Of a DNA stretch of 64,000 bases, positions 3,461 through 48,531 are shown in pieces (position 1 is the first letter of the stretch; each line of letters starts with the position of its first letter). The notes beneath the pieces are model-generated. The model ran no database searches. It saw only the letters and a list, made by a program, of their open reading frames with translations, and was not told where the DNA came from. Position numbers and translations under genes: made by a program. The stretch is from Hydractinia symbiolongicarpus (lineage: Eukaryota > Cnidaria > Hydrozoa > Anthoathecata > Hydractiniidae). The DNA lies in assembly GCF_029227915.1 (NCBI RefSeq), contig NC_079879.1, forward strand, positions 18,910,001 through 18,974,000. Direction: 5' to 3'.

Positions 3461-4260
3461 CCTCACGTTAAAATATGCAACTAACCCCATTTGCTGCTAG
3501 GAAAATTGGCCAAAATATTTTGTAAGCGATTGTAGTTCCACGTGGGATTTTCTCGGGGGAAACTAAATGATTTTCGCCAGGGAAATTCCATTATTTTTTT
3601 GGCGAATAACCCTGCATGAAGAGCCATTTTTGTCAAGAAGTATCGTTATATGATTTATAACCCTCAACCTGGAAGTTCGTATGTACTTGTGCTCATGATA
3701 CATGACACCCCTATGCGCATATGCATGTAGCTCCCCTTACTTCCATATTGCTTGTGCCGCTAAACAAATTTTATGTTTCAGCAGAATACGTCCTTGTAAT
3801 CAAAGCAAATTATTTGTTAATTTTAGTCAAAATTCTCGAAAAATACGAATTTTTTTTTTATATATTTTTGTTGTAAATTCGCAAAAAAAGTTGAGTTTTT
3901 TTAATTTAAAAAGCATACATGTTCGGCCGTGTTTAGTTGCTAGAAATTTGTCGGTAGAACAACACCCGCGAAAATACATACGTTTGAGGAGGTAATAAAC
4001 ACCACAAAAACATTCCGCAAGCCGAACCCAACCATACGCACTTGTTTTTTCATTCTCTTTTTACATAATGCAGAAAATGAGCTGTTCTACAGAATAGGTG
4101 TTGATAATGCTTAATGTGAGCAATGTTTCACTATGTTTTGTACGTTTTGTATAGCAAAGAGATTCTGAATCAATAACAAAAGCTGTTCCAATGTATTTCA
4201 TCTCATTTTATCAGAGATTCCTCGAAATGCTTGTATAAGCACTTGTTTGCAATTAAGGTC
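3086..4260. other. Intergenic stretch upstream of the transporter gene
   Basis: No protein-like ORF is recognisable here. A good splice acceptor (TTTTATCAG, ending at 4214) lies 46 bp before the transporter ATG, so a non-coding first exon or a trans-spliced leader could join there. A three-codon upstream ORF starts at 4227. The rest is AT-rich sequence, including the tail of the P5CR duplication. Confidence 0.4.
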
Positions 4261-5877
4261 ATGAATCAAAACGAGAAAATTTTAAACCAACTGGAGATAT
4301 CTAGCGACGAAAATGAGATAAATAATGGAAGAGAAGTTACGAATGGCGTTACAAGCTGTTCAAGTTCTTTAAACAACGATACAGCTAGAAGTGATTTTAT
4401 TTGTGATGCAGATGAAGTTAACTTTGAAAGTTGTGAAAAACAAGGGCTTAATGTTAAAAATCATGCTGAATATTCGTTGCACAAAAGTGAAACAGAAAAG
4501 AGAGAAAAAAAGGAAAAGGAAGGGGAAAATTTTGATGAGATAGATTATCCAACTTGCTCCACCTTAAATATAAAAGAAGAAAGTGCACAGGAGGAAAATA
4601 TATATAAAATCTACAGTTACAGATGGTTAATTTTATTCATATTTTCAATGAATACAATGATAAACGGAGTGTTATTCACTGGCTTAAGTCCTGTCACTAA
4701 CATAGCGAGTAATTATTATAATGTATCCTCGGTAATAATTGACTGGTTATCTAATTCTTTTATGATTGTGTATGTTTTCGTCGCACTACCGGCAGCTTAT
4801 CTCATGTTTATATTCGGTTTAAGACCATTATTGACTGCCATTTCATGCATGCATTCTCTTGCAATGCTTTTGAGATACATCGGTCACGAAAATGAAAGAT
4901 TCTCGTACATTTTAGCTGGACAGTGCTTGGGTGCTATATCATTTGGAATGCTTTTGCAAATTCCAGGCCAGCTATCTTCCGTATGGTTTCCTGAAAATGA
5001 AAGATCTAAGGCTACATCAATTGGAGTTGCGATGAATTTATTTGGGGTTGGAATTGCTTTTTTGCAAACAACAAGTTTTGTGAAAAATTCAACAGATCAG
5101 CGTATCGTCCAGAGTGGATTTGAAGCTTTGTTTGTGACGCAACTGGCTTTTTCTGTTGTTATATTTTTACTAACGATTGTGGCTTACAAGGAGAAACCAG
5201 AGACGTCTCCATCACACATTGTAAATGTTGAAGAGCTCCAATTTACAGCGTCGTTAAAACATTTATCCAAAAGTAAAGATTTCCTCTTTATGTCGCAGTC
5301 ATATGCCATTTATTACGCGTTGCTCGTATGTTTTACTATACTCCTGAATGTTATGGTCACAACTTATTACCCAGAAGGTTATGAAAGAAAAATTGGCTGG
5401 ATGGGTTTCACTGGTTACGTCGTTAGTATCTGCAGCTGCGTACTTGTTGGATTGTGGCTGGACAAATTTCACGCTCATCAATTGGTTGCAATGTTTTTAA
5501 ATGGACTTTCTGCAGTGACTTGGTTGCTGTTTGTTTTTTTATTAACACAAACAAAAAATTTTATTTCTTTGTTTATTTACTTCAGTGTCGTGGCATCAGT
5601 TGCTGTGCCGAATTTTGCAACTGGCATTGAACAAGCAGCAGAAATGACTTATCCTGTCCCGGTCATCATTTCCAGTTCCGTCATTTTAGTACTCAGTAAT
5701 CTGTATGCTTTTATTTTATTGTTGTGTTTTGGTTTATTAGCTGAGGCTGGATTTATTCAGATTGTTTGCTACACGATGTTTGGTTTTTACTTGGTATCAA
5801 CACTGTTGTCATGTTTAGCACGGACTGAATTGAAGAGAGGACAAGCGGAGGAGGAAGCATTAAACAATTCCAATTAA
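4261..5877 (+). CDS. FLVCR/SLC49-type major facilitator transporter
   Basis: This encodes a 538-residue membrane transporter of the FLVCR-like (SLC49) branch of the major facilitator superfamily. Characterised members move heme, choline or ethanolamine across plasma or mitochondrial membranes; the substrate here cannot be told. I chose the ATG at 4261, since no earlier in-frame ATG lies nearby. The first ~115 residues are hydrophilic and acidic, then YRWLILF opens the first of about twelve hydrophobic segments. Family-like stretches are IDWLSNSFM near the second helix, GQCLGAIS, and SVWFPENERSKATSI between helices 4 and 5 (the SVWF loop motif). The C-terminus ends in a charged tail. The gene has no intron, unlike its neighbours, so it may derive from a retrocopy. 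A possible AATAAA signal lies near 6288. Confidence 0.85.
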   Translation: MNQNEKILNQLEISSDENEINNGREVTNGVTSCSSSLNNDTARSDFICDADEVNFESCEKQGLNVKNHAEYSLHKSETEKREKKEKEGENFDEIDYPTCSTLNIKEESAQEENIYKIYSYRWLILFIFSMNTMINGVLFTGLSPVTNIASNYYNVSSVIIDWLSNSFMIVYVFVALPAAYLMFIFGLRPLLTAISCMHSLAMLLRYIGHENERFSYILAGQCLGAISFGMLLQIPGQLSSVWFPENERSKATSIGVAMNLFGVGIAFLQTTSFVKNSTDQRIVQSGFEALFVTQLAFSVVIFLLTIVAYKEKPETSPSHIVNVEELQFTASLKHLSKSKDFLFMSQSYAIYYALLVCFTILLNVMVTTYYPEGYERKIGWMGFTGYVVSICSCVLVGLWLDKFHAHQLVAMFLNGLSAVTWLLFVFLLTQTKNFISLFIYFSVVASVAVPNFATGIEQAAEMTYPVPVIISSSVILVLSNLYAFILLLCFGLLAEAGFIQIVCYTMFGFYLVSTLLSCLARTELKRGQAEEEALNNSN

Positions 5878-10700: not shown

Positions 10701-13700
10701 AACAGACAGTGCTATATTTTCTATTACATTTTTTTAAAAAATACAAAAAGTTGCCATACCATTATTTACATTCTCCAAATTTTTCTTCATGTTCTCCTCT
10801 TCATTCTCTTGATTATATTTGTCAAAAGAAAGCTTCAACAAAACCGGTAACTGATTGGCTACTGGAATACATCTAAAAATACAAAACAATCGTTTAACCT
10901 TACCTTTAATGCAATGATCAATTTTCGCATGGTTGAGTAAAACATTTTAAGAAGACTGGGCTCTAATCTTTGTTTCCCTTACATATAATGTTCGATTACA
11001 TATGCCGTAATAACTCCAACAATCCATCTTGTGCCATTTATTATCCCTTTCCAAATATAACCCATTCATTTACTACTAGAGAAGCGAATTGCCATTAATA
11101 TAAGCCTATATAAGCATTTCAGGGTTATACCACATAAATATAAGAAACCTGTAGAACAAGAAAAACCATCCAGTTTGATCACAAGATAGTGAAAAACTAG
11201 TTAATGATTCTAGTTTGAACTGTGGTTTTGATGAGATAGCAGTTTTAGTAACCTAATATATCAATTGTAGATTGCCATGGAAAACGAGCATTCTTAGGAG
11301 TCTATTTTCCTTTGATATTCATCTCGTGTAGAACCTGGGTATCTTAAAAAAAAATTTTTCTCTATTTTACAAATATGAATCACGAATCACGACATATCTT
11401 TTTCTTACCTTGTAGGACTGTATATAAAAGTGGAACAGGCTTCGTTCTTCTTACATTGATCTTTTCTGCAGAGAGACATGTTGCGGTCGCAATTTTTACC
11501 AGACAGTCTATTCACACACAAGCATTTAAAACCAGCCACTCGATAAAATTGTTTAGGACAGGAAAATGAAGCTAAAGAAAAGAACAAAACGTTTATAACT
11601 CAAAAATGAATTTTAAACTACACCTACTTCAATAGGCAGTGGAAACTACGTTTGAGACATAAAACATACAGATGAAGGCCGAACAAATGATGTGAACCAT
11701 TCGGTATTCTATTAGGAATTTTCGGGGGTGACAGGGGTTATTGGAGGTGGCAGGGGGCCATTGCACGGTTTAGTATTACCCGTTAATTTTATAGTAAATA
11801 TGTAATGAAGTGCTGCAGAAAAATTATTACAACAAAAAAGAGTTTACAAGCACATAACCAATCCAAACGCTCTTTTACCTGTTACATAGATGGGAATACT
11901 TCTGGTTATGGACAAAGGTATGAAACCGTTATCTTGGCAGGATATAGTAACATTGTACACACTTTGATTAGCATGGTCTAACTTCCGACCAGCCCTTAAA
12001 ACAATGTTAAATGCTCTTAATTTGAATGGACTGTGTGCGTCGAGGATTGAGCAGTTATGTGTTGAGTCAGCATCAACATCTAGAACCTGAAGAAGAAAAA
12101 TATTCAAATAATACCGATCTAAAACAACAGAAAGACTAGAATGCTAATGACATCATTATCACTTTCAGTTCAAAGCTCGTTTTTTAGAATGTTAGAGTAG
12201 TTTCATTTATTATTAGACAATTACATCACTATCGGACTAATCTCACTTCAGCTTTTAAATTTCCTTGACAATTGATCCGACATAAGTTTTAAGCACAACT
12301 TGCCGTAAAGTATAGTTCTCTCTCTCTTCTTAATACAAATTCTTATTTGGATGCATTTTGCATAAACTGAAAGGATTTAGGTGTATTTAATTGTTTAAAT
12401 TGCAAACATTTATCGCCTTATACTACAAAAATAATTAACTGTAATTCTACTCCTCAAAAACGAAACCAATGCTGGTCTTTTAACTTTAATAATACTTCTA
12501 ATGATAAGGACATCTAACTTTATAAAAAATTATATAAACACTTAAATACTTAAATATACATACCTCTAATTCACCTGCTAACGTATCTTTTTCACTACCC
12601 TCGTCAATTTTGTTGAGTCTAACCTTGATGTTATAAGGTGGTTCGTTTACATCCACAACTTTTAGCAAAAACCGTTTTACGTCGTATTCTCCTTTCGCAT
12701 CAGTTGCTTTCAACGCCAAATCGTACTGGTTTGCTGTTTCGTAGTCCAGTTTTTGCATCAACACTAAAGGTTATACCGCTCTAATTCAACAAACACATCA
12801 AACAGACAACATAGGTTGTTTATTAAAGAGTATAGATATTACCATGTCATGAACAAGCGAGTTTATTATAGGCTACATTTTGACAGCTACAGCTACAGGT
12901 GTCATTGACGGGAAATAACCTTAATCATCTTTGGCGATTCCGATCATTGCTCATCGATGACAGCTGTGGCCATCGAAACGTAGCCTACATTAAACTCGCT
13001 TGTTCGTTACACGATGTATATTAATATTAATAATATATTAATAATATGTATATTATTCAATGACAGTGAATGAAAAGTCTGTTTGAGGTGTTTTGTGACA
13101 GTGGTGACAATGATAATACTGACAACAATAAATCAAGCCTCTAGTATTTTATTACAATAAGGCAAGACAAAATATTATTTCTAAAATTTAGCTGATCATT
13201 GTAAAAACCACATCAATTAAAAATCTTCTTACCTATTTCAGCGTCACACTGCATTTTACCATTTCCAATGCCCTTACAGTCTGTTTTACCGAAGTTGAAA
13301 ATTTTATTTAACGATATGTTCTCAAACACTATTGTATCGTTATCATTGTCTGTTGCAGTGACTGTTCCAATAACAGAACCTGTAGGTGTGTTCTCAGAAA
13401 CAGGTTTTATGTTAATCACAATATTTACTGGTGGTGAATTCAAGTTTTTTCTTTCTATAAACAATTCTTTTACCGTTGAGGCTGGCATTGTGTCTTTATC
13501 AGTACACACAATAGACACTTTGTGAAAAGAGTCTGGCCCTTCTGGAAATTTTTTTGTCAGTACTAACAAACTGCCATTCGATATGGTAAAGTGTTGATTT
13601 ACTAGAGAATCTTTCAAGGTCCATACAAACATAGTAGAAGATCTCACAGGCGGCAGGATATCATAATCGATTGCTGACAGATTGCCAATAACACTTCCAA

Positions 13701-16700
13701 CAGGAGTTAAATCGGTGAAAATGTAAGAAGATATCTCAATATCTTTGGGAGGATCATTTACATTCAAAATTTTAATAGTAAACAAAGCTTCTGTGTTCAA
13801 CTTTGGGTCAGTTGCATCTGTTGCTCTAATTTTCACATCGATTGTAGTATCACTCAAAGATTTAATGGTGAACACCTTTGAATTTTGTAGGAAATTTCGA
13901 TTTACTATAAAGCTGTTTACTCCTTCTGAGCTCTCTATACTGAATACTACAGTTGATGGATACACTGCAGATAATAATCCCACATTACTGTGAATAGGGG
14001 AATGTTCTAGGATGCTGCTATTAGAGATCTGTAAATTCTTGGGCGGGTCTTTAAATCGACGACAATAATAGGTTTGATATACACTGCTATGAACGTCCCA
14101 TTTTCCAGATCCATTAAAAATGCACTTAATTTCTAATTCAACGTTGTTAAAATTAACTGATTGCAAACTTTCACCAAATTTTTCATTCGCTACACTATTA
14201 ATCGTGGCTAAACCATATCCTGATGGGCACTGAAAACGACAACTTTGATTAAAGAAACTGCCTTTTGGACAAGAAACAGTAACATTATTACAAACAGCTC
14301 CAAGGTGGTCAATGTAAGTATTAGCAGGACATTTTGCAAGTACAAGATCTTGACAAGGGTAGGGGATGCATGTTTTACCATCTGAATCTAAGTAATAACC
14401 TTCACGGCACCGGCAGTCGTAACTACCTAACGTATTTGTGCATATCTGACTACAGCCGCCAATGTTCAAAGCACATTCATCAATATCGTGGCAAAACTTT
14501 CCACTTGCTAAAAAAGATTAATTAAAATTAAACTTATTTTGCAATAGAGTTAATATGATGATCAGTAGACGTGGGACCAGGTTTAGACTGTGACAAAAGT
14601 AGCATATAGTTAATCATGAGTAAAAACTTTAAAAAGCTTTTATTTGTTAACAACAGTGAAACAACATAATTTACACAATTTGCTACATTTTATCTCACTT
14701 ATTAGCAACCATTACACATCATTTAATTGCATTAGCAGCATGGTTAGTTTTCAGCTCAGGCTCATCGTCATTTCGACGTTGTTTTTTAAGTGGCTTAAAA
14801 CAATTACTTTTAAACGTACTATATTGACAAACTGCGGAAAAATGTGCAAATTTGATTGATCTCTTATTTTAACCTTGCCATAAATTATTCATGATAATAT
14901 AGTAATTTTGTTTTTACACACAACTACTACAACTACTTATCACTCATAAAAAAAGTTTGAACCACAAACATTAATTTTTTTAAAAGCTTCCATTCGCAAA
15001 AATAAGACCCCATTTTGCAAAAAACCCTTTAAATAGGAAAAAATTGGTTATGCAGAGAAAATATATTCAGACATATTTTCTTCCCTTATAATAAAACTAC
15101 ATGAAAATCACATATTTCAAAAAAATGACTGAAGTCAGCTCATAGCTCCCTCCAGTAAATTTATACACACTGTTAAAGTCATATGATCACAACAAAATGC
15201 AATGAGAACACCTTTTACTGAACATGTTAAAATTAATCAAGTATCCAAAGACACACAGGCTCCGTCCATACATTAAAAATCATTTATTCTTTTCTTACCT
15301 GCATCTAAGTTATATCCTTTGTCACATGAGCAGCTCCCATCTCTGCTATTACAGGTTTGTTCACAATCGTTTTTCAGTTTTCCACACTCTTTTGTTTGAC
15401 AACTATTTGGATATAGGTCACAGTTATTACATCGGGAACAAAAAATATTATTATATTCCCGATGTCTTGTTATGAAGCCAGTTACGCATAAGTTTGCATT
15501 GTTGCATGGTGAAAACTCACCCCACTTATTCCACTTGTCTAAAAGTTAAAAATATAAGACTGTTGATTACTAGTGGTAGGAGATTTTCGGAATTTTATGA
15601 CATCAGCACTGCTTATTCAAAAATATATTTTTAGAAATTTGGTGAACTGTTGCATCTATTGTTCACAGCTTGAAACTCTGACCAAAATAATGTATAGGAT
15701 CACGTGGGTTTTTTTCAATGAATGGTTAAGGTTTTAATTTTTTCGCTGACTGCAGCAAAAACCCACTAACGTTTAAAAAATATTTTGTTTAGAAATTCAC
15801 CAACCTTGTTATGTGAAGCTTAAAGCACTGATCAAGAAAATGTACAGCACCATGTCCTTTCAAAGAACTTTTACAAAGATATAGAGGTTTAACAATTGTT
15901 TGATGACATTATCAACCTGTCATTTCCGAATTGGATGTGTTGACCAAGCTTTAGAAAAATTGGTCTTTTTTGGGTGGTCACTAGTTACTATCGGTGAGAA
16001 TATCTCAGTTATTTCCAGCCGTTTACAAATTATTTAGTGTCCATATTATTGACTGAGACAATAAAAAAAGAGACTGGTTGGACAGCAAGAAAAGTGAAAG
16101 AAATCATAAATAGTACAGAAAAGATTTTATTAGATTGCTGTGATCTGATTGGTTGATTTCAATCCTCTTATTATCTCCACAACTAAAAAAGTCAAAGATG
16201 ATTACAATTGCCCGTTGATGAAAGCTTTTGCTGGTGAAATTTAGCCTAGAATAAACTTGCTTGTTCATGACATTAAATATTGCACACAAAAAATTTCCAA
16301 AGAGAGAGAAATGTCTTACTACCTTTGTTGCCCAAATTAGATGTGCCTAAAATTGATATATTGATATCTAAATTGTCCAGGATCAGCCTTTGGTAAAATT
16401 AAGAAGGAACAATTTTTTTCTTTCCTCGTGACAATAATGAATCTGATAAAAACTTCTTTGTACCGGGCGTATAAAAATATTTGTGTGCACCAGAACTTTT
16501 TAGGTAATGATAATATTTACCAGCTTTCTATAATTGTACATTTTTTTATTTTATTTAACATTGTTGAAGGAAATAATCTTAGTAACCCCTTTTTTAGCCA
16601 TTCAAGCAGATGGATCTTTTAGGTAATATTTGGCAATTTTTTTTTGTATACTTAATATAATCCCTTTTTTTGACATTTTATAAATTCAGAGCACAAAAAA

Positions 16701-21860: not shown

Positions 21861-21864
21861 TCGC

Positions 21865-21901
21865 CACGGCTGTTTCAGAGCGGAAACTAAGACTGCGCAT
21901 G
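21865..21901 (+). repeat. Left terminal inverted repeat of the RAG1-like transposon
   Basis: Block 1 (14 bp) is at 21865-21878, then a 2-bp spacer, then block 2 (21 bp, starting CGGAAACT and ending GCGCATG) at 21881-21901. TCGC at 21861-21864 is the target duplication. Confidence 0.8.
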
Positions 21902-22692
21902 CGTCAATAATTACGGCCACGTTGAGGCGCAAGATGGCGGGCGCAAATAAAAACAATCATGATAAATAAGTAACTAACTTTTTGAAATCGCTTTTGCATG
22001 ATAGAATCTATTTCAGTGGATTTAATTTAGTTTTTTAAAGCATTTCAACACGCTGGAAGCTAAATCTTTCTTTTACCTTTGCGACAAGCATGCTGTTGGA
22101 GTAATACTGTGGCAGTTTTGAAGGCATACTTTTTTTTGTTAAAATTAACATGGCAACTTGTTCCAACTAATTTTTGGTTTTGTGGACGTTGCGAAGTTAT
22201 GTGGCTGGTGTATTATATATTTTTGGAAAGCTGAAAGGCTCATCTACAAGGTAAGAAAAACGAAAAAACTGTATCAGTACTTCTGAAAGAATGCTAGAGC
22301 GCTGAATTCTGGCAATAAAAGTTAGTGTAAAACCTGAAAATTTTAACTCCCTCTTTGACATAATCTACTGTATGATTTATTGTAGGCATTAAAACTGTTG
22401 TAGTTTACTAAGCTAATATTTCACAGAATAACAACACTAAACAACATTCTATATAAACAATTCTGTAACTCTAAATAAGGTTTCTGCGTCTCATACACTA
22501 CTAACGTAAGCTCGACAAAAAGTCAAATAAAAATGAACTATGCATGTAGTAAGCTAATTAACTGTTCAATTCTTTTTCTTTCTAGACCAGCTGATCCACC
22601 TTTGAAATAATGCAAAGACTAAAGGAGCTTGCAAAGTAATGCTAATATGCAGTTAAAGATATAACTAGCTATCTAAGCTGTAAGTCTAAAAG

Positions 22693-25600
22693 TTATTCTT
22701 CACGTGCAATTTTTCTTTTTTTAATTTTTGGTTTTAATTGGCTCGATTCAGGATTTACATTAACAAAATGTTGCTTTAATGTATTTCGTAACCGCTCGAC
22801 TGGGTTTTTGATGCAGCTGTACCTGCTCGACATCCTGTTGATTTCATGATGCAAGCTTTCTCCACCTTAAAAATGTTATAATTTGACATTTAAGCTAGCT
22901 AGCTACACATTTTCTGAAAAATAACACATTTTGGTAAAAAACACAAATTTTGGTGTTACCAGGTTACAAATTTAAGTGGCTGTTTACCTTGTTCGCCATA
23001 AAACCCAAATCCAACATTCCATTTTGCTATGAACTCAGTGACATGATCTTCAAGCATATGCAGTTTTGGTGAAATATTAACTTTTGGCCAGTTAGTTCGC
23101 AGATGCATCATGAATTTATTAATTGAAATTTCTAGAATTATGTACTATATGTATATTATTCTTTCTTTTTGTTTTGTTTTTGGCACATGAAATTTTAAAA
23201 AAAACTTATTTATTATTAAAAAAAGGAACAAGTTTCTCACCTAAAGCCAGTATTTCCTCACATGACAGATATTTTGCCGAATTGTAAATGTTATGAACTT
23301 CTGCAAAGTAAGTAAATAACATGTCGTACTTATCCATTTCTAAATTCACACTGTGAATAAGCTGGTCATCATGCTTTTGTGCTGCAACAATCTCTTTAAT
23401 GCTGGATGTTAAATTTTGGATGTTTTCTTTCTATAAGAGCAAGATTGTTTTTTTAATTTTCTTTAAATATGTTATTTTTAAATTGCTACATTATTGTTAG
23501 TATTAACAAACCTTTAGCAATTTATGTACATGGTTGCCGATAAAACTTTGGCCATGGTAGGCCTGACGTTCAACACCCATTTTTTGCAGCGTTTTATCTA
23601 TTGAAGAAGCACAAGGACCAACACCTAAAATAAGATGAACAAACTATTAAACATAGCTTTAGATTGGAGAGAATATAAGGCTTGCATCATAAGATCAGAA
23701 TGAAAATTATAATTTTGGAAAGTTTTTTTTCGGGAATTAAATTTCTTGGAATTTCCAGACAAAAAAACATTTGCGAATATCACAAAAAATTACTTAGGTA
23801 ATAAAAATGATCATACCCACTAAAATTCTTTTGTTGTTTCCCAAGGTTGAGATTTCTAATTCTAATTCTGTGATTTTCTTCTCAGTTTTTATTATACTTT
23901 TCTCGTACGTCAGTATATTTCGTTGTAAGCCACCAGATATTACAAGCCAGTTTAACTGATCTTGCTGGTTTGCTAATTTGGCTTTTTCATCTTCCAGCTT
24001 TTGCTGCAAGTCATTTGTTTCTTTAAGGACTTCGATGTAGTCACCATAATCTGAATCCAGTTCATTGTCTTCTGTTGCCAACAGCAGAGCTATTTTTACA
24101 TCATAGTCTTGGCAAGAAGACTCAAACATTTTAAACATCTTTTGATATACACCCAAGGAAATATGAAGACCAGGAATACAGACCTAAAATTAGGTGTTTA
24201 TATAGATTTTATTTTGGGATTATTAAATCAACTTGCAGTGGAAAAGCATAAAAATATGATGTATACTTGATCAATAGGTATGTCAAAAAATATGTTGTCA
24301 ATGACATTATAAAATTCTTTCGCATTTTTAGGGCTCCCACCACTTTCACGGAAATCTGCTAAATTTTCTTCAAGTGTCGCCAGTGACCTTTTCTTAAATT
24401 TCTTGCGAGTAAACACTGGGATGTTCATTAGTTTTGAGGTAATGTTGCAAAACAAACAGCTGTGACGCCCTAAACACAAATGTTAAAGTATACATATTTT
24501 ATTAGAAACTTTTAAAAATAAACCATTTTTAACTATGCATTTCCCATATCTGCGTAGTAAAAACCCATTGTTAAACTACAGGAACTTTATGAAGTTGCAA
24601 AAAAAGTTCTGTAAAAATTAATTAATTTTGATTATCAACTAGCAACTTGCCCCAGATCTTAAGTAATTAATATTTACCATTTGCACCAGTTATACCATAC
24701 ATTGCACACAGAAATTCGTAGTCGCCATACATAAATACACGGAATATCGACTCTTTATATTTGACTTGTTGCAGCATTTTTATTTGTGGTCAAAAATTAA
24801 TTAATTTTGATTATCAACTAGCAACTTGCCCCAGATCTTAAGTAATTAATATTTACCATTTGCACCAGTTATACCATACATTGCACACAGAAATTCGTAG
24901 TCGCCATACATAAATACACGGAATATCGACTCTTTATATTTGACTTGTTGCAGCATTTTTATTTGTGGTCGAAACCGTTCAAGGCAGACTCTTAAGTTTG
25001 TTCTTGTGTCTTTCCCTAATTTAAAAAAAAAATATAAAAAATGTTTTGATTTCTACTTTAGATCACTTAGATCATTTCTACTTTAGATCACAATTAGACA
25101 TCACATGCATAGAATTTTGGAAATTCCAGTTTTAATTTTTTTTTTTTCATATTTGTAATATATTGCATTAATGTTTGTTACCTTCAAAAATGCTAAACAT
25201 TATTGTGTTTTCCTTCTTGTTTGGGTTTAGAACATTGCCTATTTGATATGCCATTTTAAAACTATTTCCTCCATGGTCTCCACCAATTTTAACATGGATC
25301 TCATTGTCAGGAATGAAACTATGTTTTACAAGTAAATTGTGACATTCTAGCTTTTTGAGTTGATACAGAATGTGGCCAACTACATTATACAGATACCCCC
25401 AGGGCCTAGGTATAACGGATACCCTGTTTCCAACTGATAATTTGGTGAGAGGAGCCAGCTCAACTCTCAGTCCTTGGCCTACCCATTCAGCAGCGACACT
25501 TCTTGCTTTTTTTTCTGATTCAATTTTTATGTTGAATGTTTTCAACCAACGTGATATTTCACGTAGTTGATTCCATGGCATGTTTAAATTTGATTTCATT

Positions 25601-27337
25601 GCTGTGATGTGATTGGCTGGAATAATGACTTCTGTACCCAAATTTTTAATGATAGTATTTCTGTCACTTTCTTCCATAGACTTTAGCAGTGCTGTGGTCT
25701 GTTTTGTGACAGATTGGGTTTCTTCACCAGACATCAGATGGATTAACTCCTTGGCTGTATTTGCTCTTTTCCGCACATTCCTTTCACATGTTTCATCAGA
25801 AGACTTGCGAGGAATTCTAATGGGTGTTATTGTCAATGGCTAAAATATGGAACATATGTTATTAATTTGTTTTATGTAAAATGTAATATTACTATTAAAA
25901 TTATCATATTGTTACAGACAATTATGTGTACATTATTTTTAATATAACATAGCATAGTTTTGTATTTTTGTATAAAGTAGTTATACACATTTTTTATATA
26001 AGATCACTTAACGATGTAGACGCCTTAGCATTTAGGGTGGGCACATCAAAATTTTAGTAAATCTCCTAATATATAGAATGGTTTTTATTGACCCCCAAAA
26101 CTTCCTATATTCTGTGACCCCTCTAGCCACTTACTTATATTTATTATTATTTTTAATTATTTACTCTGAACATTTTAAAATTTGTCTTGTTCTTATTATG
26201 GCTTGTTTTTTGTATAAAAAATGTGTATAAGAAACATTTCACTGGAATTGTAAAAAAATGATAACCTAGGTATGCACATATATAGACATATACAAAAGCA
26301 ACTTATTTTCAGTTTTGATTTCAGCCTTAAAATTGCTAAGATCAAAATTTTTTGCTTTATCAGCCGTTTGAAAATCAGTTGCTTGTTAAAAAAAGTCAAT
26401 GTCAAATCACTTTTACTGAGTCCACTCCATACATAAGTAATCTTACTTGTGAACTTCCACTGGGCAATTGGACAGTTTTATTCGGCAAGTTTGACTGCTG
26501 CATTTTTATTCCAACCACATGAGCAATGCATTCTTCTACCTTTTTCGGTACAGGCTTGGAAGGGCTCAACTGCATCATCTCTAGTGTTGTAAATGACAAT
26601 GCTGGAGAGCATGTGTGCGATTGTGCAGACAGCAGTTTAAATGAACAACCACATGTTCCCTTGACAACTCGTGTGTTTAAAATCCTGGAAATGCACAAAC
26701 CAGGCGAGACATCCCCGGGTGTTGTTGGGATGCTGCAGGTGGGACATCTATTTGAATTTTCCAACCAATTTGTTAAACACAAGGCACAAAACACGTGGTT
26801 ACATTGGTTTATCATTAATGGCCTTTTTAAAATATTGCTACACAAAGCACAAATCAGATGTTCCCAGTTGCCTTCACTGATATTTATGTCTGAGAGAACG
26901 TTTCCACTATAGTCAAAAAGTTCAGAGGTTTTTCTGTAAATTTTATTAAGTTCTAGGGGTGTCCAAGTTTTTTCTGCGGAATCCACAGCTTTGTGTGTTG
27001 GGTTACCACCGCCCCTTCTTTTCATAGGTTTGCCACCTCTCTTTTTTTGTGCACTTAATATGCATGTTTTGCACTCGGTGTCTTTATGTGTATACCATTT
27101 AACAGGCACAATAGCGGTAGCTGAGTCACGTTTTAGGACATTACTTATTGTAGCAAAGCACGAGTGACAGAATTTTTTTGGGTGAATGCCTGCCCGATCA
27201 GAATAAAAATCAGCTCTGAAAATACTGTCCAAGTTCTTTATGTGCTCTTGGACAATATGTGATCGTCCAGGCAGAGTGTTTCCACATATTCGACACAGCT
27301 TGTTCAACCGAGCTAGGTGTAAATCCCCAGTAGCCAT
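22693..27337 (-). CDS. Transposase with RAG1-like zinc/RING N-terminus (N-RAG-TP-like), 965 aa
   Basis: Nine exons splice in frame: 26447-27337, 25182-25839, 24857-25015, 24267-24469, 23817-24183, 23512-23624, 23241-23430, 22988-23131 and 22693-22865. Residues 15-92 have the order of the RAG1 zinc-binding dimerisation region (CRICG, IHPKKFCHSC, KWYTH, CKTC). Residues 163-201 form a C3HC4 RING (CALC, CNHVFCALC, CPTC). A Cys/His cluster follows at 229-243. The rest is unlike the RAG1 core: KIGGDHGG (D485), YGDYEFLCAMYG (D555), GRHSCLFC, a coiled-coil-like stretch in exon 5, VERQAYHGQSFIGNH, SPKLHMLEDHV, and GGESLHHEINR (E911 or E916) near the C-terminus. I infer D485, D555 and one of those glutamates as a DDE-type triad. 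The start is the first in-frame ATG after a stop-free leader. It should bind the element's ends and move it in the nucleus. Confidence 0.85.
24613..24970. repeat. Exact 179-bp tandem duplication inside the transposase gene
   Basis: Bases 24613-24791 and 24792-24970 appear identical by eye. Each copy holds the 3' half of transposase exon 3 with its donor site and part of the next intron. The copy at 24792-24970 is continuous with the intact exon and its acceptor at 25016-25017. The other lacks an acceptor and would lie in the intron, so the reading frame is not harmed. A collapsed or expanded assembly repeat is an alternative. Confidence 0.85.
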
Positions 27338-27770
27338 CTTGAACTTTAACAAAAATTTTGAAAAAAAAGTACCTAATGTTTGATACAATATCAATTCGTA
27401 ATGTACTGATACACCTACAGTTCTTTTTTTATTCGTATCTCGTAACTATCTTGGAATGATTTTTATAAAAATTATCTGTGGGATAACTTCGTATCTGAAA
27501 ATATTTTGCTTTAAGTTGGCATGGTGTCCACAGTCTTCAAAATGGAGGTTGAAAGTTTTTGTTTTGTTTTAGCTAGGCAACAAGCGAATAGCTTTGTATT
27601 TGAATTAATCTTATTGGTATAGGACTATATTTTATTTAAACCACTTAGTTTCCAGTCCTTAAGTTGGTTTATGTGATTAAAATGCCTATTAAACCTGGTG
27701 CTAGCTACCCTAAAATTTGTTTACTTTTAAGCGCAACTCGCCCCAGTCCTTATTTTAAATTTTTTTTTGA

Positions 27771-27817
27771 CATGCGCAGTCTGAGTTTCCGAAATCTCGC
27801 TAGCTGAAACAGCCGTG
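27771..27817 (-). repeat. Right terminal inverted repeat of the RAG1-like transposon
   Basis: Read inward on the minus strand, block 1 (27817-27804) is identical to that on the left. It is followed by a 12-bp spacer (27803-27792) and then block 2 (27791-27771), which differs from the left copy by a single base. The extra 10 bp of spacer is the only large difference between the ends. TCGC at 27818-27821 is the target duplication. Confidence 0.8.
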
Positions 27818-27821
27818 TCGC

Positions 27822-35087: not shown

Positions 35088-36378
35088 TTACACGTGCGCG
35101 TTGACTGGAGGATAGTTCATGCCGTAATACTTCCTATAACATTCCAATTCTTCTTGAGTGATCTCTTTATGCATGAAAGGTATGCGACGTGCAAAGTTAT
35201 CGTACTTTCTATGTTCATCGTAAAATACTTCCGACGTATCGGAGGACACCGACATTGGTCGAGATGGCTCCGAACTTGCATCGGACGATCCCGATATCAT
35301 ACGAGGCGGACAATCAGGTACACAAGAAGCCGCTCGTTTTTTATATTTCATTCTTCGGTTTTGAAACCAAATTTTAATTTGACGTTCAGATAAACCCAAA
35401 ACTGCCGCCATTTCCATACGACGGTCTCTTGTTAAAAATTGACTGCAACGAAACTCCAGTTCGAGCTCTGTAAGCTGTTTACGCGTATACGCGGTTCGTT
35501 TACGTCTTTTCGACTCCAGCGCAGGTGATTTCTCTAGAAACAAAAACATTAAGTCATTTTACAAGAAAACCCTCTAATTTTGAATAGCTGATTTTAAAAC
35601 CTTACCGACTTTAAAAAAGCTACAAACAAAAGAACACAACATCTCAAGAACTTACCTGTTATGACGGGAGGAATTACCGATGGCGGTGACGGAATTGTAT
35701 TGTTGTTTATTTCATTGTTTAGAACTGGTTTATTCGTACTCCACCACATTTCTGCATTTTGAGATTTAGTCCAAGGTAACTGTTGATACATGCCGTGAGG
35801 AAAATGACCATGTGGTGGAGAATTATCATGATGTAATGTTGGTACATGTGAATAGATCTCCGGCGGCGGGAAATACGAGGGAAAGTAGGCTGGTGGTGTG
35901 GGAAAGCAGACAGCTAAATTTAGAGAATATTAAGGTTGAAAAAACAAAACATGGATGTTTAAAATTTGCAAAATATTGTTAAGTATTGACGATTTTTACC
36001 TGGTTCGGTCTCATTGCCAATGTATCCATTATTGTAATTATGCATTGAGTAGCATGGTGTAACAAACGACGGAACATCATTGTTTGAAGTATTTGTCAAA
36101 GACCTTCCTGTCGAATGCCAATGTTCACTTCCAACATAGGGGCTAGTTTTATACCGTTCAATATTAAAAGGTGACTGTATTGATCGCGTTGTATTTAAGA
36201 GGTTTCTTTCCTTGTAGTAGGTATCAAGCGGTGATGTTGATTTCGTTATAGCTTCAGAACTTGTTGGAATGAATTCTTGTTTTACCGAAGCTCCCCCATT
36301 TTCTGGATACACTGTTGTAATTGGAGATTGAGAGCATTCGTCTCCTTCAACTTCCTTGTTTTCAACAACTACACTCAT
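35088..36378 (-). CDS. Hox/ParaHox-like homeobox protein, 360 aa
   Basis: Three exons (36000-36378, 35656-35913, 35088-35533) join in frame from ATG 36378 to a stop at 35088. The homeodomain is residues 221-280, starts [12 protein letters not shown], and keeps W48, F49, Q50, N51 and R53 ([13 protein letters not shown]), so it should bind TAAT-type DNA in the nucleus. LPWTK in exon 2 resembles the hexapeptide by which Hox proteins contact PBC partners. The region before it is rich in Pro, His and Tyr. LTRDRR in helix 2 recalls posterior Hox proteins, whereas RMKYKK recalls anterior or central ones, so I do not assign a paralogy group. The second intron lies a few residues upstream of the homeodomain. 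The 80-residue tail is Ser-rich. Confidence 0.85.
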
Positions 36379-36950
36379 TATCAACTTTCTGATTACAATT
36401 TACTCAAATTACTAATCGTTAAAATTTTAATTCGATAATTTTGTACTAAATTTTTTTTTAATACACTTACAGTTTACAAGCCTCCGAAGTCGTTAGATTA
36501 TCCTATTTTACTGATTGCTGAGACGTAACGAGCATATTAACACTTTTTATTTTATTGTATTCTTAACATAAAGAATTAAAAGAAACACTTTATCAAGGGA
36601 GTTATTACTCATACAAAAGTTTCTTACGTATTTAAAATGTCAATTAAATATCCCGCGTGTATTTTTTAGCCAATAAGAATTCAGAGATTTCAATTTTTAG
36701 CGAATCAGAAACGGCTGTTTTTTGTCAAGAGATATCAATCAAAAGGGTCAACTTGTATGAAAGTAAAATTCTAATTCGAAGTTTCACACCGAGAATTTTG
36801 AAGTGTATATAGAAGGAATTGAAATGTACACAATTAAGTGCATCTTTTTATTTTTTAATCTGGCCAAAAATTTGTATATTAATGAGAATGTCCTGTTTTC
36901 TACGTTAAGAAGAAGAACATTATAAACTGATTTTATTTATATTTGAGTAT

Positions 36951-47539: not shown

Positions 47540-48531
47540 ATGTTATCTTCAAAATTTCAGTCCAACCATTTCGTGCCTCTCGTTCATTCTTCTTTAAAAC
47601 GAAAGACTGATCAATCACGTAAATTATATTTTCCTAAAAAAGTGTTTACTGACGGTAATATGTGTGTAGGTGGTAAATTACAGACAAAACTTAATTTCTT
47701 AACAAAACCTATAGTTAAAACATATGAATCACCTGCTATAACTTCCAGTATTAGCACAATTTCCAAAAATTGTTCCACTGTTGATAGCACAGAACCTGAA
47801 ATGGTTTATGTTTGTGAAAATGATGTTGATGTTGAAAATGATCTTTTCGATAAAAAGTTGCTAAATTAAAGGAAAGTGATATTCATAAACTTATTACAAA
47901 TTTATTCATTCCGGATAACACTTACAATTTCCCTGTCAGTAACATGAAATTTCAGTCTACGGTCCGTGTGCAAGAAAATAGACCTAGAGTTTGTTCTTGG
48001 CAGGTACATGGAATCAATGTATCAGCTGATACTTTATCTAGTTACTACCTGCGCAATTTAACAATTCCAATTCTAGATCACCTAAGCACTGAACTTAGTA
48101 AACGATTTGAACCTAGTTCTTTAGCAGCTTATGCTGGTCTTGCAGTAATTCCATCCAACATGATTTCTCTTCTTTACCATCACCATCACCAAAAATCTGG
48201 GAAGGATAACTTCAGAAATTTTGTTCAGTTTTACGAAGAAGACATGCCTAATTCTTTAGCTATTGAAACTGAAATGGACTTGTGGGAAGAATATTGGACT
48301 TGGTACAAATTTGATGCACCAGATAATGTTTTCTCTACACTTAAATTAATTCATTTTCCTGCCTTTGAAAATATAACTGTGGGCCTAAGAATTTTAGGCA
48401 CATTACCAGTCACGTCATGTGAATATGAAAGGTCCTTTTCTGCACTACGACGATTAAAAATTTATAACCGCAGTACTATGTCTAACGATAGACTAAATGG
48501 CTTAGCTCTTCTCCAAAGAAATAAATATTGA
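47540..48531 (+). pseudogene. Broken hAT transposase, C-terminal part
   Basis: Two frames, joined by a frameshift near 47850, give a low-complexity N-terminal piece and then a block with WQVHGINVSADTLSSYY. The block ends in the hAT dimerisation signature PVTSCEYERSFSALRRLK followed by DRLNGLALL. The central catalytic region with the first acidic residues is missing, so the protein is not functional. A run of four His codons at about 48178-48189 is chance. Confidence 0.7.

Follow-up and report, generated by a model that had tools for sequence, protein, structure and literature searches.

Does a cnidarian genome carry a mobile gene in which the N-terminal part of RAG1 is joined to a transposase other than the RAG1 core? 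A locus in Hydractinia symbiolongicarpus, a hydroid kept in laboratories, raises this question. We analyzed a window of 64,000 nucleotides (contig NC_079879.1, 18,910,001 to 18,974,000; positions below are those of the window unless a contig is named), in which a first-pass annotation had described an intact, possibly active fusion of this kind. The locus is very probably a Chapaev-type DNA transposon that is intact and moved very recently, with one spliced gene encoding a RAG1-type head and a DUF1280-type transposase.

The element and its copies

The whole transposon is 5,953 bp long (21865..27817) with its gene on the minus strand, and the alignments of other copies end within 0-2 bases of these limits. 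It begins with CAC and ends with GTG, and is flanked by perfect copies of a 4-bp target-site duplication, TCGC (left, 21861..21864; right, 27818..27821). Perfect 4-bp duplications were found in all 25 two-ended copies, namely the window copy, 20 fetched loci (L009-L028), L029, L031, L032, and L034. L012 and L013 have common flanks, leaving 24 independent insertion sites. The ends, the target duplications, the copy number, and an internal tandem duplication described below had been omitted from the first-pass annotation.

The element moved recently and its gene is intact. Twenty-three near-identical young copies (L009-L028, L031, L032, and the window copy) differ at 29 variable columns, with a mean pairwise divergence of 0.07% and a median of 0.035%, gaps aside. 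The window copy bears the majority letter at all variable columns. The protein frame is intact in 20 of the 23; L019, L023, and L032 have coding deletions, and L031, which lacks 12 nt in frame, was scored as intact. Copies were chosen for comparison as the best matches (40 of 47 candidates were scored), and the copy total is a lower bound. Ten of the 29 variable columns form one cluster, in intron 1 (window-equivalent 26347-26358), carried by L011, L015, and L026, with one column also in L009. This cluster resembles a small template switch or conversion.

Four older copies (L029, L030, L033, and L034) contain stretches 74-95% identical to the element, mostly 85-92%. Exon 1 is interrupted by stops in L029, L030, and L033, and L034 has an internal deletion. 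Since older copies exist, the family either predates the recent burst in this genome or arrived again; ancient residence with a recent burst and re-entry both agree with the coexistence of old and young copies.

A perfect 179-bp tandem duplication (24613-24791 and 24792-24970; 24613..24970 overall) consists of the 3' part of exon 3 and intron sequence. The donor of exon 3 would come from the first unit, whereas the extra one, having no acceptor, would remain in intron 3. Of the 23 young copies, 5 have one unit, 15 have two, and 2 have three; the deleted L019 has none. Since the old copy L029 has one unit and the number varies among young copies, the duplication probably arose during the recent burst. 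The copies with three units are L012 and L013, which lie about 15 kb apart (G000:C9) with the same 16-base flanks, a local or assembly duplication.

The predicted protein and its family

We rebuilt the gene from nine predicted exons on the minus strand (27337-22693). The joined sequence of 2,898 nt has no internal stop and encodes 965 residues, and all eight predicted introns are GT-AG. Splice junctions were scored by a simple consensus, with the top five options for each in hand-picked open segments. Five of the eight chosen junctions rank first; junctions 4, 5, and 7 rank fourth, fourth, and second, and were preferred because the resulting joined protein aligns with relatives. P0006, from a eukaryote protein set, shows 28% identity to the 965-residue query across 99% of its span. 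The sole near-identical database protein, P0015 (99%), runs on into intron 1 and ends there, giving no evidence on splicing.

Exon 1 (26447..27337) encodes residues 1-297 and holds the RAG1-like region. Exon 2 (25182..25839) contains the DUF1280 match and KIGGDHGG, with candidate catalytic residue D485, and exon 3 (24857..25015) contains YGDYEF, with candidate D555. They are followed by exons 4 (24267..24469), 5 (23817..24183), 6 (23512..23624), and 7 (23241..23430). Exon 8 (22988..23131) carries candidate E907 and terminates within GEQGGES, and exon 9 (22693..22865) supplies the remainder of this motif, including the alternative E911, and the stop codon. The exon structure and length agree with the first-pass annotation, and each motif listed there was found in the joined protein: CRICG (residue 15), CHSC (57), CKTC (89), a C3HC4 RING (C163-C201), a C/C/H/C cluster (residues 229, 231, 241, and 243), and the KIGGDHGG, YGDYEF, and GGESLHHEIN blocks.

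Residues 38-103 (27029..27226, minus strand) match RAG1_imp_bd (PF12560), the RAG1 importin-binding zinc domain, at 6.1e-7 (29.7 bits, cut-off 23.3), and residues 163-201 (26735..26851, minus strand) match the RING model PF13923 at 4.1e-12. Exon 1 also matches several other RING models in Pfam. We compared the protein with the sequences of solved structures. Residues 38-229 are collinear with RAG1 156-357; the best score, 1.4e-13, was tied between RAG1 and a two-RING construct, and only RAG1 spans residues 38-229. The CRICG stretch also aligns to RAG1, and that piece alone was not significant. With the RING excluded, residues 1-150 match RAG1 at 1.1e-6, and the next matches, at 0.25 and 0.89, are to antibody chains. 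Used as a profile, a nine-row alignment (A4) matches solely RAG1 at E<=0.01, in three distinct sequences; for the two longer of these the match extends over RAG1 98-386 and is loosely aligned across the RING. Thus, the proposed likeness to RAG1 beyond a generic RING holds, with RAG1 the sole significant match of both the RING-free part and the profile.

The rest of the protein is a DUF1280-type transposase. Exon 2 matches DUF1280 (PF06918) at 4.1e-12, and DUF1280 was detected in all 14 relatives scanned, each at its own score. In an eight-row alignment, K481, GGDHG (483-487), N499, GDY (554-556), C574, and C577 are among the invariant positions. E907, Q908, G909, and E911 are common to the five relatives that span that stretch, which P0003 and P0004 do not reach. 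No RAG1 core was detected in this part by sequence or profile, whether with Pfam, the profile of the 14 relatives, or exon 2 alone, in line with the earlier proposal. The 14-relative profile reaches RAG1 only through its N-terminal part, and exon 2 alone has no match among solved structures up to E=10. PF12940 (RAG1) found no match in the genome; its control matched nowhere either, so this result is weak.

Two printed hallmarks of Chapaev are target duplications of 3-4 bp and 5'-CAC/GTG-3' ends (PMC4079192). The 25 two-ended copies have 4-bp duplications, and CACGGCTGTTTCAG stands at both ends of the element. Two subgroups with a Chapa domain followed by a RING are described by Kapitonov & Koonin (2015, PMC4411706, citing Kapitonov & Jurka 2007), and exon 1 has this order in PF12560 and PF13923. 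We equate PF12560 with Chapa, as we infer from both being named as the N-terminal part of RAG1. D485 and D555, invariant in the eight rows, and E907 or E911, conserved in the five spanning relatives, would be the candidate catalytic residues. According to the same authors, Chapaev occurs in the lancelet and the starlet sea anemone, and Hydra is among the species in their tree (PMC4411706).

Could the locus instead belong to the RAG/Transib (RAGL) group, with a diverged RAG1 core? The RAG1 non-core zinc region is present and collinear, the ends are CAC, and Kapitonov & Koonin treat Chapaev as a distant clade of the Transib superfamily (PMC4411706), whereas the CMC grouping puts it with Mirage and CACTA (PMC4079192). 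Against this, the duplications are 4 bp long, whereas those of RAGL are almost always 5 bp (PMC7204232), and neither the relatives' profile nor exon 2 reaches the RAG1 core; the empty PF12940 search adds little. Beyond its gene the element leaves room for just 828 and 480 bp. Its longest remaining stop-to-stop frame, antisense to exon 1, has 129 codons; judged by this room and the open frames, with no Kelch profile run on short exons, no RAG2-like partner was seen. RAGL membership was rejected on the 4-bp duplications and the missing core match, and we regard it as improbable. An artefact, in which mis-splicing joined a generic RING protein to a transposase, is less probable still. Taken by itself, the RING has matches in many E3 ligases as well, and the exons were predicted from DNA; nevertheless, the RING-free residues match nothing except RAG1 below E=0.2, the A4 profile selects RAG1, and the order is repeated in relatives, as L035 and L036 carry a like exon 1 followed by transposase blocks and P0005 and P0006 have the same order. 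We rejected it for these reasons. An intact, intron-rich gene might also be a domesticated host gene rather than part of a live transposon; this is contradicted by the two-ended copies with their duplications, 23 of them near-identical, and was rejected as having practically no probability.

Several points weigh against our assignment to a recently mobile Chapaev. Membership is judged from printed hallmarks and domain order. A protein search with residues 1-260 gave zero matches among 533 candidates. The gene model was predicted from genomic DNA, and the catalytic residues are candidates by conservation. The share of intact copies is skewed upward by the sampling of best matches, and assembly homogenization might conceivably have contributed to their likeness, though the flanks differ and private substitutions exist.

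RING-less relatives and asymmetric ends

We searched the genome with the exon 1 protein and obtained 133 matches (132 of 187 candidates were scored). Among the scored matches, 20 other loci extend without stops from query residues 5-7 to 290-296 at 29-33% identity. Five further loci span likewise with stops, one of them starting at residue 11, with identities from 26%. In the two of these 20 that were read, L035 and L036, both the RING cysteines and the blocks of the transposase are present. In 19 loci (18 equal-scoring), residues 10-114 are followed directly by 244-293 in a single 171-codon open reading frame, and the RING is skipped. This RING-less family was read in exon 1 of L037 and 81 bases of L038, and the exact agreement of the two begins at CAC.

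In a tree of the core (17 rows, midpoint root), L035 and L036, both RING-bearing, form a pair (95/95) next to an unstarred clade (84/93). That clade contains P0001-P0004, in which Chapa leads to the transposase without a RING, together with the window protein. The RING-bearing P0005 and P0006 fall outside both groups. The RING state must have changed at least twice, and the tree as drawn needs three changes. The simplest local reading would be RING loss in the lines of P0001-P0004 and in L037. Further out, no RING was seen in P0007, P0009, P0010, and P0014, which weighs against a RING at the root; P0008 and P0011-P0013, short or partial at the N-terminus, are uninformative. The tree would also agree with a RING gained early and lost later, or with several independent gains. 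RING loss has been inferred for Transibs by Kapitonov & Koonin (PMC4411706). The RING may be dispensable: multiplication of the RING-less sister argues that an element can move without it, unless the sister borrows the enzyme of another family. The earlier suggestion that the element can show how RAG1 acquired its N-terminus is addressed in part: RING loss fits within the element's clade, and the tree gives no clear direction for deeper gains, losses, or transfers.

Each end of the window element has two blocks, CACGGCTGTTTCAG and CGGAAACTMAGACTGCGCATG. At the 3' end of the gene (21865..21901, plus strand), CACGGCTGTTTCAG is separated by a 2-bp spacer from CGGAAACTAAGACTGCGCATG, whereas at the 5' end (27771..27817, minus strand) it is separated by a 12-bp spacer from CGGAAACTCAGACTGCGCATG. 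The 12/2 asymmetry was found in 25 of 25 two-ended copies, and L033 shows the 12-type end only.

We scanned the genome with the pattern CACGGNTGNTTCA-(1 to 24)-GGAA, using the reversed pattern as the control, and obtained 103 matches against 2. Among the 100 matches listed, 50 come from the window element's family (25 long and 25 short). The RING-less family contributes 19, all of the long type and at its 5' ends; one of these (C8, 24345995) has no exon 1 match. For the remaining 31, the spacing equals one or other of the two lengths exactly in 22 and differs from both in 9. Many matches share descent, and the counts are not independent events. A further long match, C14:11752812, precedes a distant Chapa exon (31% identity) by about 0.46 kb. 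Between the RING-less family and the window element, 3 of 13 spacer letters and 11 of 14 outer-block letters are alike. No 3' end was located for the RING-less family, whose 5' end alone shows the long spacing. For L035 and L036, a simple scan gave no pair of terminal repeats with matching duplications and a repeat search was unconvincing; the fetched pieces may miss the ends. Short-spacer and long-spacer ends also face each other in a 287-bp stretch known by its coordinates (G000:C12:24799082-24799368), probably a non-autonomous miniature derivative.

A tentative and rather unlikely hypothesis is that the Chapaev lineage with the RAG1 N-terminal module uses asymmetric two-block ends whose spacers (12 bp and 2 bp) differ by one helical turn, so that the transposase would pair a long-spacer with a short-spacer end. 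This 12/23-like rule would predate or parallel that of V(D)J recombination, and the inner block would be read by the RAG1-like N-terminus or a neighbouring domain. Two spacers may differ by about ten bases through chance. Apart from V(D)J signals, spacer asymmetry has been reported for ProtoRAG and some Transibs (PMC8355894). It goes unmentioned in those portions of the Chapaev literature that were compared; no search was aimed there, Repbase reports lay outside the scope, and we claim no priority.

Other features of the window lie apart from the transposon. A homeodomain open frame (35091-35558, minus strand; PF00046, 2e-21) is located about 7 kb from it, and the open frame at 35959-36399 (minus strand) could be an upstream exon of this gene. 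A major facilitator transporter-like frame of 565 residues (4180-5877, plus strand; PF07690, 2.4e-22) and a single open frame with EGF-type and cadherin domain matches (13216-14517, minus strand) were also found. A match to the hAT transposase dimerization region (47854-48528, plus strand; PF05699, 1.2e-7) is probably a hAT element or hAT-derived gene.

Proposed function and comparison with known systems

By analogy with related families, the transposase would bind the bipartite ends, excise the element, and reinsert it with a 4-bp stagger by DDE cut and paste. The zinc-dependent N-terminal module might be an accessory for nuclear import or for contact with DNA or protein, and the RING would probably act as a ubiquitin ligase regulating the transposase or host partners. 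The origin of the corresponding module of RAG1 has been argued from domain orders (PMC4411706, PMC8355894). A family with intact copies, young enough to move now, makes the use of a RAG1 head easier to test. With a RING-less sister exon beside RING-bearing families in one genome, the contribution of the RING to transposition becomes directly addressable, and the asymmetric ends allow a simple test for a V(D)J-like pairing rule outside the RAG/Transib line.

The locus had been likened to N-RAG-TP with an unrelated transposase. A RAG1-like head is indeed joined to a transposase other than the RAG1 core; the element is better named a RING-bearing Chapaev, and "unrelated" is disputed between PMC4411706 and PMC4079192. 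The Aplysia N-RAG-TP is likewise a mobile element encoding a protein similar to the RAG1 N-terminus, but by its description it is composed entirely of such sequence (PMC8355894).

With Chapaev elements bearing Chapa and RING, the element shares the order of Chapa, RING, and transposase, the CAC/GTG ends, and the 3-4 bp duplications. This architecture is already published, as the domain descriptions in PMC4411706 indicate. Compared by description only, the Hydractinia family stands apart in its host, its extreme youth and many intact copies, its 12/2 ends, and the occurrence of RING-bearing relatives together with a RING-less sister exon in one genome. Vertebrate RAG1 differs in its core, which is not detectably that of the Hydractinia protein, and in its 5-bp duplications in place of 4 bp, and no RAG2 partner was seen here; in the non-core region, the importin-binding zinc domain, the RING, and the following C/H cluster are collinear in both (RAG1 98-386 by profile). 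RAGL/ProtoRAG and Transib elements have the RAG1 core and 5-bp duplications, with a RAG2L gene in RAGL. They share with the Hydractinia element the CAC termini, RAG1-like N-terminal zinc motifs in RAGL (as described in PMC7204232), and asymmetric spacers in ProtoRAG and some Transibs.

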